DNA of 32,007 nt from Treponema sp. (lineage in GTDB: Bacteria > Spirochaetota > Spirochaetia > Treponematales > Breznakiellaceae): the NCBI GenBank assembly GCA_031270205.1, contig JAISYA010000243.1, positions 1 through 32,007 on the forward strand, written 5' to 3'. The notes beneath the pieces were generated by a model. That model worked only from the letters and a program-made list of their open reading frames with translations. It was not told the origin of the DNA and did not search any database. Within the stretch, counting starts at the first letter, position 1, and every line of letters begins with the position of its first letter. Of the stretch, positions 10,534 to 13,538 are shown piece after piece. The translations under genes were made by a program, and so were the position numbers.

Positions 10534-10608
10534 CGAGCGGCCGCCACTTGCGCCGCGTGCCGCGGTTTTCCGCTGTTCCATTTCAGTGCGTTTATGGTAC
10601 AATCACTT

Positions 10609-11097
10609 ATGATTGAACAGGTTCGTGTGTATTTAAGCCGCTGGAACAGAGACCAGGATATTATCGAGATGGACGCTTCCACCGCCACGGTGGAACTTGC
10701 CGCCGCCGCCCTTGGCGTTATTCCCGCGAGAATTGCGAAAAGCATTTCCCTAAGGAGCGCTGACGGGGCCGTAATCGTCGTGGTCGCCGGGGACGTGAAA
10801 CTGGACAACCGGAAATTCCGCGATCAATTCGGCTTTAAGGCGAGAATGTTAAACTCCGCGGAGGCGCTTCAATGTACCGGCCACGCCGTTGGCGGCGTCT
10901 GTCCCTTTGCCCTCCCTCCCGGCGTTGCGGTGTACCTGGACAATTCCATGAAGCGTTTCCGGACGGTGTACCCGGCCTGCGGCAGCGGCAATTCCGCGAT
11001 AGAATTGACCCTGGCCGAACTGGAAGAATACTCGCAAAGCAAAGGCTGGGTTGACGTGTGCGTTCCTTATGCGCAGGGAATTCCGGATTCAAAATAA
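10609..11097 (+). CDS. YbaK/EbsC-type aminoacyl-tRNA deacylase family protein
   Basis: ALGVIPARIAKSISLR...GDVKLDNRKFRDQFGFKARML...ALQCTGHAVGGVCPFALPPGVAVYLDNSM...VYPACGSGNSAIELTLAELEEY. Internal ATG at 10609 preferred over 10594 because of the overlapping promoter-like sequence. Confidence 0.88.
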   Translation: MIEQVRVYLSRWNRDQDIIEMDASTATVELAAAALGVIPARIAKSISLRSADGAVIVVVAGDVKLDNRKFRDQFGFKARMLNSAEALQCTGHAVGGVCPFALPPGVAVYLDNSMKRFRTVYPACGSGNSAIELTLAELEEYSQSKGWVDVCVPYAQGIPDSK

Positions 11098-11230: not shown

Positions 11231-11527
11231 AAGCGGGGGCAGGGTGCTGCCCTAAGCGGGGGCAGGGTGCTGCCCTAACGCTGGGGCAGGGTGCTGCCCT
11301 AACGCGGGGGCAGGGTGCTGCCCTAACGCGGGGGCAGGGTGCTGCCCTAAGCGGGGGCAGGGTGCTGCCCTAACGCTGGGGCAGGGTGCTGCCCTAAGCG
11401 GGGGCGGCACTCTGCCCTAAGCGAGGAAAGGATCCTTTCCTAAGCGAGGAAAGACCTCTTTCCTAATACGAGGAAAGCCCTCTTTCCTAAGCGAGGAAAG
11501 ACCTCTTTCCTAATACGAGGAAAGCCC
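11231..11527. repeat. Tandem array of 13 units of 23-24 nt, each a short hairpin with a 4-nt loop
   Basis: Seven units of (AAGCG/AACGC)GGGGCAGggtgCTGCCCT, one variant unit GGGCGGcactCTGCCC, then AAGCGAGGAAAGGATCCTTTCCT and (AAGCG/AATACG)AGGAAAG(acct/ccct)CTTTCCT units; unit 13 interrupted after AGGAAAGCCC. Confidence 0.95.
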
Positions 11528-11642
11528 CGCTCGACAAGCGCACGGCGTAAGCCGTGTAGCTGACTAATGCAGCAAAGCGTAGGCCCAATACCCGCCACGG
11601 TATGCGTAGACCGCGCGGCGGCTTTAGCCGCCGCGGTGGCCG
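11528..11642. other. Segment interrupting repeat unit 13, itself containing two hairpins
   Basis: 5' arm GAGGAAAG (11517-11524) and 3' arm CTTTCCT (11643-11649) of one unit are separated by unrelated DNA with CACGGCgtaaGCCGTG (11541-11556) and CGCGGCGGCtttaGCCGCCGCG (11614-11635); array resumes with AAGCGAGGAAAGaacgCTTTCCC. Confidence 0.65.
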
Positions 11643-11737
11643 CTTTCCTAAGCGAGGAAAGAACGCTTTCCCAGGCGGGGAGGGACGCCGCCCGCTCAGG
11701 CGGCCGGCGCGAAGATCCGGTTTAACGCCCGCGCCGC

Positions 11738-13504
11738 TCATTCGCCCTTTGCCTCAAGCGGAATGAATTTGAACGCTGCGGTGTCAAACAGGCCCCTGTC
11801 GGTTATTTTCAGGCGGGGAATGACCGGCAGGGACATAAAGCAGAGCGTCATCAACGGCTCAATTTTTTCGCTCACCCCCAGATCGTCTACCGCTTTTTGC
11901 TGAAGCGTTCTCAGTTTACGGTCCACCCACTCTCCGCTCTGATCGCTCATCAGGCCGCCCAGGGGAAGGGGCATCTCTTCGAGGATCGCCCCGTCCCTCA
12001 CCAGGACCGCGCCGCCGCCCAGGGCGATGAGGCGCTCCACGGCCCGCGCCATGTCGCCGTCTCCGGCTCCCGCGGCGATGATGTTGTGCGAATCGTGGGA
12101 CACTGAAATGGCAACCGCGCCCCGGCGGATTCCGTAGCCTCGGATAAGGCCAAGGCCCACGTTGCCGGTGTTTTGGTGCCGCTCCACTACGGCGATCTTG
12201 GCGATACCCGACGCGGGATCAAACTGAAAGGCCCCCGAAGAATCCCGCTTTACCGCCGCCCGTACCTTGCCGGTAACAACGCTGCCGGGGCGTATGTCGA
12301 TTACCCACACCTGGTCCGATGCGAGGGGCAGGGTGAGTTTCCGCGCCGAAAAGTCCTTTACGTGAAAACTGGAGCGCAAAAGCGTGCCGCCGGCAAGCGC
12401 CGCAGCGTGCGGTTGTGCGGACCGCGGCAAAAAACACCCGTCCCGTGCGGTAAGTTTCCCTTTGATAAACACCTGCCCCACGCGGAAGTCCCGCAGGTTA
12501 TCCACGAGCGCAATATCCGCCCGCAGGCCCGGCGCGAAACCGCCCCGGTCTTTCAGGCCGAAACATTCGGCGGCGTTCAGCGTGGCCATGCGCAGGGCGG
12601 TCATGGGGTCAAGGCCGTACTCAACGCAGAGCCGCAGATGCTTATCAATATGCCCCTCTTCAAAAATGGTCCGCGGCTGGCAGTCGTCGGTACAGAACAC
12701 ACAGCGGCGGCTGTTTTCCCTGGTTACGCCGGGGAGGAGCGCCCGTAAATCACGGCAGGCCGAGCCCTGGCGGAGCATCACGTACATGCCCATCTCAAGC
12801 CGCCGCCGCATCTCTTCCGGCGTGGAACATTCGTGATCGGTGTGGATCATGCCCGCCATGTAGGCCGAAAGTTCCCTGCCGCCCAGGCCGGGGCTGTGGC
12901 CGTCAATCAGCTTGCCCTGCCCCAGCGCCAAAAGGATTTTATCCAGCGCGCCGTCGCTTTCGTTAATCACCCCCTGGTAGTCCATCATTTCGCCCAGGCC
13001 CAAAATCCGCTCATGTTTCAGCGGCGCTTCCAGGGCGGCGGCGTCCAGCGCGGCCCCGTTGTGCTCAAACGGCGTGCAGGGTACGCAGGAAGGGGCCATA
13101 AACTTGATGTCCAGGGCGATGCCCTCGGATGTCTGCAGCATGTAATCCAGGCCCGTAAGGCCCGCGACATTCGCCACCTCGTGCGGATCGGCGATAATGG
13201 TCGCGGTCCCCCTCGGAACCAGCAGCCGGCCCAGTTCCGGCGGGCTTAAAAAAGACGACTCGATGTGGATATGGCTGTCGATAAACCCCGGAAGCACATA
13301 CTGTCCGGCGGCGTCAATTGTCTCATGCCCCTGATACGATCCCGCCCCGCCAATGGCCGCGACCAGCCCGTCCGTAACCGCAAGATCGCCCTCAATAAAC
13401 CGCCCCGAATACACGTCGGCGATTTTTCCGCCCCGCAGCACCAGTTCCGCCGGTGTTCTCCCCGCGGCAACGGCTATCAGTTTTTTTAAAGTGTTTTTGG
13501 TCAT
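11738..13504 (-). CDS. ade: Adenine deaminase
   Basis: ADE-type amidohydrolase: AELVLRGGKIADVYSGRF, VLPGFIDSHIHIESSFLSPPELGRLLVPRGTATIIADPHEVANVAG, VFCTDDCQPRTIFEEGHID, ISVSHDSHNIIAAGAGDGDMARAV. Start at ATG 13504 (MTKNTLKKL) preferred over 13531. Confidence 0.95.
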   Translation of the reverse strand: MTKNTLKKLIAVAAGRTPAELVLRGGKIADVYSGRFIEGDLAVTDGLVAAIGGAGSYQGHETIDAAGQYVLPGFIDSHIHIESSFLSPPELGRLLVPRGTATIIADPHEVANVAGLTGLDYMLQTSEGIALDIKFMAPSCVPCTPFEHNGAALDAAALEAPLKHERILGLGEMMDYQGVINESDGALDKILLALGQGKLIDGHSPGLGGRELSAYMAGMIHTDHECSTPEEMRRRLEMGMYVMLRQGSACRDLRALLPGVTRENSRRCVFCTDDCQPRTIFEEGHIDKHLRLCVEYGLDPMTALRMATLNAAECFGLKDRGGFAPGLRADIALVDNLRDFRVGQVFIKGKLTARDGCFLPRSAQPHAAALAGGTLLRSSFHVKDFSARKLTLPLASDQVWVIDIRPGSVVTGKVRAAVKRDSSGAFQFDPASGIAKIAVVERHQNTGNVGLGLIRGYGIRRGAVAISVSHDSHNIIAAGAGDGDMARAVERLIALGGGAVLVRDGAILEEMPLPLGGLMSDQSGEWVDRKLRTLQQKAVDDLGVSEKIEPLMTLCFMSLPVIPRLKITDRGLFDTAAFKFIPLEAKGE

Positions 13505-13510
13505 GCCTTT

Positions 13511-13538
13511 ATTATATGTAAAAAAAGGCAAAAGACAA
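13511..13538 (-). promoter_or_regulatory. Candidate ade promoter TTGTCT-16-TATAAT
   Basis: Reverse-strand ttgtcttttgccttttttTACATATAATAAAGGCATG; TATAAT ends 6 nt before the ATG at 13504. Confidence 0.6.

Follow-up and report, generated by a model that had tools for sequence, protein, structure and literature searches.

The tandem hairpin array that separates a YbaK-like gene from ade in this Treponema sp. genome very probably belongs to a family of palindromic arrays that normally lie behind genes encoding HU-type proteins with a DUF4469 domain, and is a gene-less member of that family. We consider it moderately likely that the explanation holds as a whole, namely that the array is a solo member of this gene/array family and a candidate site recognized through its dyad symmetry. 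The more specific proposal, that an HU-DUF4469-type protein binds this very array, has about an even chance of being right.

The window is the whole stretch of DNA that was analysed, 32,007 nucleotides long, and is contig C209 of a 2.48-Mb assembly in 253 contigs that is 78% complete. The features at the array are the following.

10594..11097, + strand: aminoacyl-tRNA editing domain protein (YbaK-like), flanking gene (PF04073, 86 bits)
11233..11394, + strand: block 1, seven tandem units, each a linker AAGCG, AACGCT or AACGCG followed by GGGGCAG-ggtg-CTGCCC (TRF, unit parse)
11395..11417, + strand: transition unit GGGGCGG-cact-CTGCCC, hairpin at 11401-11417 (sequence, parse)
11418..11511, + strand: block 2, four tandem units, each a linker AAGCG or AATACG followed by AGGAAAG-nnnn-CTTTCCT (TRF, parse)
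11518..11524, + strand: 5' arm of the 13th hairpin, AGGAAAG (flank joining)
11528..11641, + strand: 114-bp dispersed non-coding element in the loop of the 13th hairpin (genome search, alignment, folding)
11643..11649, + strand: 3' arm of the 13th hairpin, CTTTCCT, displaced by the insert (flank joining)
11655..11672, + strand: 14th hairpin AGGAAAG-aacg-CTTTCCC, end of the array (unit parse)
11738..13531, - strand: adenine deaminase (ade), flanking gene (PF13382 and PF01979)

The original prediction had placed thirteen tandem hairpin units between these two convergent genes. Tandem Repeats Finder (TRF) and parsing of the units confirmed the array, and the Pfam matches confirmed its neighbours, but the count was different: twelve units of 23-24 bp, spanning 11233-11511, are complete, the thirteenth is split by the insert and a fourteenth follows, the unit number itself being uncertain because the draft assembly is fragmented. 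TRF assigned periods of 24, 47 and 95 to positions 11233-11405, with 94-98% matches, and periods of 23 and 47 to positions 11416-11527. As a pattern control, CTTTCCTAAGCGAGGAAAG was matched four times against 0.01 expected. The complete hairpins comprise seven of the form GGGGCAG-ggtg-CTGCCC, one of the form GGGGCGG-cact-CTGCCC and four of the form AGGAAAG-nnnn-CTTTCCT. Both arms do change together at the switch between the blocks, as had been claimed, and the stem of the transition unit indeed keeps its pairing through one G-T pair. This unit is a loop-inverted version of the block 1 form, the reverse complement of GGTG being CACC and the loop here CACT, one change away. The AGGAAAG stem is found by itself on contig C160 of the same genome and GGGCAG..CTGCCC by itself on C147, so the window array may be a mosaic of two pre-existing unit types rather than the product of an in-place switch. 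The two strands, described earlier as equivalent, differ in sequence because the linker is directional. No flanking inverted repeat was evident around the window array.

The insert in the thirteenth hairpin has about 30 other matches in the window genome (contigs C8, C200, C236, C40, C60 and others), and joining its flanks gave AGGAAAGCCCGCTTTCCT, which restored the 18-mer hairpin (p<0.0025 versus shuffles). Copies of this element measure 114-118 bp (CGCTCA...GTGGCC), contain two hairpins, often stand in tandem and at several loci sit in the loop or the 3' half of array hairpins. Relatives were seen in genomes G007, G011 and G018 and in a Treponema sp. MAG (L118); copies at about 1493-1603 of L006 (G018:C96) and about 1492-1601 of L008 (G007:C17) abut the 3' end of a tRNA-Gly and the 5' end of an apparent tmRNA. 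We considered the possibility that the element generates the arrays and rejected it: the element covaries little (2 of 16 pairs) and is a dispersed repeat in its own right, with hairpin loops among its insertion sites. As named Treponema MAG records (L118) share the element, the source is probably a termite-gut treponeme, the habitat being read from isolate names. A wide pattern scan of contigs returned mostly unrelated GC-rich chance matches, and its informative part consisted of Treponema sp. loci, L118 foremost.

The search for arrays with other arms that had been proposed as a check disclosed 19 array segments with a common linker type in the window genome, amounting to 154 units in about 15 stem classes; they came from pattern searches and tandem-repeat scans of sampled stretches. 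Different arrays have the linker in common, not the stem: the linkers are of the (T/C)AAGCCT, TAACGCT or TAATACG types, and TAAGCCT, CAAGCCT and TAACGCT reappear as the 7-nt loop of differing stems, a pattern not seen in 200-kb samples of two array-less relatives. Across 15 stem classes, Watson-Crick pairing at the outer six positions reached 0.867, versus 0.432 (sd 0.059) when the 3' arms were shuffled, and none of 5000 shuffles was as well paired as the observed arms. In the 19 segments, the five stem positions outside the 4-nt loop formed Watson-Crick pairs in 96% of cases, and diversity within arrays was 0.09 for arms versus 0.30 for loops. Arms that vary independently, which would have spoken against the first interpretation, were not seen in these arrays, which also change both arms jointly. 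The window genome also holds palindromic tandem arrays built from other units, 21-23 bp long and in up to 36 copies, at L160:8116-8937 (G000:C1), L164:13154-13404, L169:316-545, L172:8470-8790 and L174:311-529, the first of them following an HU-DUF4469 gene. Next to hairpin arrays of two genera stands another short palindrome, GGTGnnTGACACC (L004, about 2640-2870, G000:C160; L379, about 4060, G108:C85).

The genes next to arrays in several species have common C-terminal ends such as '...REVRSEFKLTA', and those scanned encode an HU-DNA_bdg domain (PF14848) followed by DUF4469 (PF14734). All 28 aligned members of this protein family carry DUF4469, and 26 carry the HU domain. Among 30 genomes searched, DUF4469 was present in 14/14 array-positive and 2/16 array-negative genomes (p=8e-7), the genomes having been selected once arrays had been seen and including few complete assemblies; PF14848 was absent from all nine array-negative genomes tested. 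Two genomes counted as array-negative are exceptions: G009 has 23-bp arrays behind both of its DUF4469 genes, and G003 has AT-rich repeats with a TAAGCC linker. The separation may thus be cleaner than counted, though this is a post hoc reading. Position matters as well. An array with a period of 20-26 or 44-49 bp was found in the 3' flanks of 47 of 68 DUF4469 genes, versus 6 of 67 5' flanks (p=2e-13), which leaves 21 of the 68 genes with no detectable 3' array. The best repeat lag past the stop codon was 23 in 39 of 45 array-bearing genes. Taken individually, 12 of 33 gene-linked consensus units passed the palindrome shuffle test (mean score 5.3 vs 3.9), many of these units being weak palindromes.

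The link extends to another phylum. In Parabacteroides distasonis, all five DUF4469/HU genes examined are followed, right behind the stop codon, by a 23-24-bp array, and in three of the five the linkers are TAACGCT, CAAGCCTG or AAACGCT; one of the HU-DUF4469 genes of this species precedes an GGGGAGGCATCATCCCTAACACT array. The records concerned are labelled plasmids and are probably chromosomal pieces. On a human-gut phage contig (L469, MT836435.1), the gene of an HU-DUF4469 relative with 58.6% identity to a Parabacteroides protein is followed, after about 590 bp, by a 23-bp array, a hint that phage or prophage DNA may carry such genes. A distant HU-DUF4469 protein is encoded on two unannotated human-gut phage contigs, and a search of viral contigs with two Parabacteroides proteins returned no relatives. 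In an AF2 model (mean pLDDT 84, pTM 0.48), HU-type helices and strands are followed by a beta-rich Ig-like domain, the arrangement of the domains being uncertain at this pTM. The best structural match by far was 4FMR (BVU_2165), a putative DNA-binding protein of Bacteroides vulgatus. Model and match together support the presence of an HU-type DNA-binding fold in these proteins.

The window genome itself has three DUF4469 copies (contigs C1, C178 and C159), an HU-DUF4469 gene among them, and the window array has units of 23-24 bp, dyad symmetry and the linkers AAGCG, AACGCT and AATACG. It does not lie directly 3' of an HU-DUF4469 gene, and tblastn found neither such a gene nor a fragment of one beside it; we therefore call it a solo array. 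Solo arrays are the majority in this genome. Those with GATCGG stems (C16, C200) match the gene-linked array of C178, and the solo-array stems GTTCATG and GTTCCG match gene-linked arrays of G065 and G053, respectively, while no gene-linked array with the exact window stems was seen. A decayed C-terminal fragment of DUF4469 lies by a solo array at L172:189-314 (G000:C13; 67% identity over 42 aa), which suggests that arrays outlive their genes.

Linker-plus-palindrome arrays with other stems, detected with spaced linker patterns, occur in several species of the same genus (G007, G047, G052, G053), elsewhere in the family in other genera (G065, G085, G104, G108, G137) and, beyond it, in one more family of the order (G156, G133). 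The distribution is patchy, many complete genomes giving no matches, and reversed control patterns gave few matches save in some repeat-rich genomes such as G104. In G003, which has one DUF4469 copy, AT-rich 21-bp tandem repeats carry a TAAGCC motif (L253:1089-1148; L231, about 900-1010). In that species alone a close ybaK orthologue was found, with a different downstream gene, and no empty site could be read from the ybaK-ade synteny. Neither the window array nor the 114-bp element had matches pointing to a phage or plasmid source.

Several known systems resemble these arrays in part. In partition centromeres and iterons, such as parS arrays and replicon iterons, short repeats likewise stand in tandem next to a gene for a DNA-binding protein. 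Unlike them, the present arrays do not conserve their repeat sequence among close homologues and exist in many copies per chromosome, including solo arrays; their surroundings showed no sign of a ParA, Rep or replicon setting. BOX elements and MITEs can hold a tandem hairpin module within a mobile non-coding element. Such a frame was seen in one genome only, G156 (L360, L361, L363), where arrays with GGATA/TATCC stems lie inside the inverted repeat CACAGGAGGTTG...CAACCTCCTGTG. A CRISPR reading is weaker, as the units are contiguous and the linkers near-identical, with no unique spacers. REPs of the GTAG and CGTC superfamilies are, like the arrays, small intergenic palindromes, multicopy, lineage-specific and mostly downstream of coding regions (PMC3733652); their conserved unpaired motif, next to stems whose arms vary yet stay complementary, has its parallel here. 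GTAG/CGTC tags define REPs, which go together with RAYTs and seldom occur as head-to-tail dimers (PMC3733652); in contrast, the arrays have an AAGCCT/AACGCT-type motif, are strictly head-to-tail with a 23-bp period and are linked to HU-DUF4469 genes. No GTAG or CGTC terminal tag was present in the linkers of any parsed unit, and the RAYT (Y1 transposase, PF01797) was absent from the window genome, which is incomplete, and uncorrelated with arrays in the genus. The REP/RAYT reading was rejected on these grounds. The protein family of the proposed partner belongs to the HU/IHF superfamily (HU-DNA_bdg plus DUF4469, PF14848 and PF14734; 4FMR, BVU_2165). HU clades are reportedly expanded in Bacteroidetes, an observation ascribed to Burroughs et al. 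(2017, Cell Cycle). No mention of arrays beside DUF4469 genes was met in Pfam or PDB descriptions or in the literature found, so that this linker-palindrome type is apparently previously undescribed, with priority uncertain.

We considered the possibility that the arrays are selfish or neutral REP-like DNA, spread by slippage and recombination, with arms copied by template switching and a gene link that reflects a duplicated gene-plus-array cassette rather than binding. Template switching is known to homogenize the arms of inverted repeats and invert their spacers (PMC8604942), and hairpins are likewise known to arise and persist through it (PMC8794818); loop-inverted neighbours and whole-arm replacement are the footprints expected from it. 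Loop inversions on the same arms were indeed found (GTTCATG-gt/ac; GTTCCGTATGCGGAAC beside GTTCCGCATACGGAAC in G053), and the higher-order periods of 47 and 95, the patchy distribution and the different arms behind near-identical proteins are consistent with such an origin. Template switching plus slippage could, moreover, keep arms complementary without selection on pairing. Yet these processes, which explain the joint arm change, do not explain why a fixed site past the stop codon of one gene family, a strict 23-bp period and a conserved linker should persist across two phyla among arrays with no common stem, and homogenization should affect loops as much as arms, whereas arms are the less diverse. 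We therefore regard a selfish or neutral origin as unlikely, though it deserves to be taken seriously. If instead each HU-DUF4469 paralogue acted as a homodimer reading its own arms, orthogonality would arise from co-evolving arms. Each gene does tend towards its own stem, the near-identical pairs L416/L417 and L443/L379 have arm sequence in common, and loop 231-240 of DUF4469 is the most variable stretch among close pairs (0.44 vs about 0.2 elsewhere, in 12 pairs only). However, the arrays behind L392/L393 (90% protein identity), L442/L379 (84%) and L381/L396 (82%) have essentially no common 9-mer, and binding by HU-family proteins is as a rule not sequence-specific, making this mode of recognition quite improbable.

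A function at the transcript level, whether as 3'-UTR stem-loops, as terminators or as stabilizers of mRNA, would account for the location directly past stop codons, the strong predicted folds and the 7-nt loop that recurs on differing stems. If pairing were maintained in RNA, G-T mismatches should exceed A-C ones; yet outside the loop, stems showed 8 G-T versus 6 A-C events, no excess. A ratio of 19:2, obtained with a parser that rewarded G-T, had suggested strand-specific RNA pairing, which was dropped in view of the unbiased counts. Solo arrays have no fixed orientation with respect to genes, the linker of gene-linked arrays can face in either direction (L273 vs L379, L392 and L394), and an Rfam search returned no family, only sub-threshold miRNA chance matches. 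The lack of strand bias and the mixed orientation favour a DNA-level feature, and a function in RNA is very unlikely. As for an assembly artefact, the fragmentation and incompleteness of the draft and the position of several arrays at contig ends might suggest one, but arrays of this kind turned up in many genomes that were assembled independently, as well as in named P. distasonis records, and the window array lies between two intact genes within a 32-kb contig; doubt is limited to the number of units, and the chance of an artefact is negligible. Of the two targets of selection originally suggested, the RNA stem-loop was thus weakened, while the dyad-symmetric binding site is the best supported and now has a candidate partner in the HU-DUF4469 family.

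The unrelated arrays behind proteins that are 80-90% identical imply either few specificity residues or a reading of shape. HU binding to bent DNA, four-way junctions included, is independent of sequence (PMC5683647), and IHF binds four-way junctions with or without its consensus (PMC9820253); recognition of a dyad or cruciform would therefore fit sites that keep their pairing and are free in sequence. In the mechanism that we propose, tandem head-to-tail palindromic repeats of about 23 bp would have their home position immediately 3' of genes encoding HU-DNA_bdg (PF14848) plus DUF4469 (PF14734). The protein, presumably a dimer as in HU and IHF, would bind its own array and, in trans, solo arrays. 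What it recognizes would be mainly dyads at a regular spacing (bent, cruciform or hairpin DNA) and not one particular arm sequence, so that the arms would be free to change provided that both do. Units would multiply by slippage and unequal exchange, leaving the 47- and 95-bp higher-order periods, and new arms would arise where template switching at quasi-palindromes replaces a whole arm or inverts a loop, and where arrays exchange sequence at the common linker. A local nucleoprotein structure, with an insulating, silencing or partition-like role, is the outcome that we would favour over a purely selfish module.

The common linker, the 23-bp period, the joint arm change, the co-occurrence with the gene and the 3' position in two phyla are all read from sequence. 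From them we tentatively draw the picture of a gene/array system of Spirochaetota and Bacteroidota in which paralogues each have their own 23-bp array, solo arrays are served in trans, recognition is by shape, and arms are freely turned over or private to a paralogue; such a system might serve to mark or silence parts of the genome or DNA that invades it. DUF4469, a widespread, functionally uncharacterized domain that occurs with an HU-like domain, is thereby tied to a specific candidate DNA partner directly behind its gene; no function for DUF4469 or for structure 4FMR was found in the literature searched. The gene/array link reaches human-gut Parabacteroides, and the same two domains are recorded in TDE_2259 of the oral spirochaete Treponema denticola, which is down-regulated in a trtA mutant (PMC12724145). 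If shape recognition is true, the arrays would be a natural experiment in replacing paired arms while keeping a binding site, and would offer a clean test of template switching versus selection. Their gene-specific sequences allow one to ask what each protein-array pair does.
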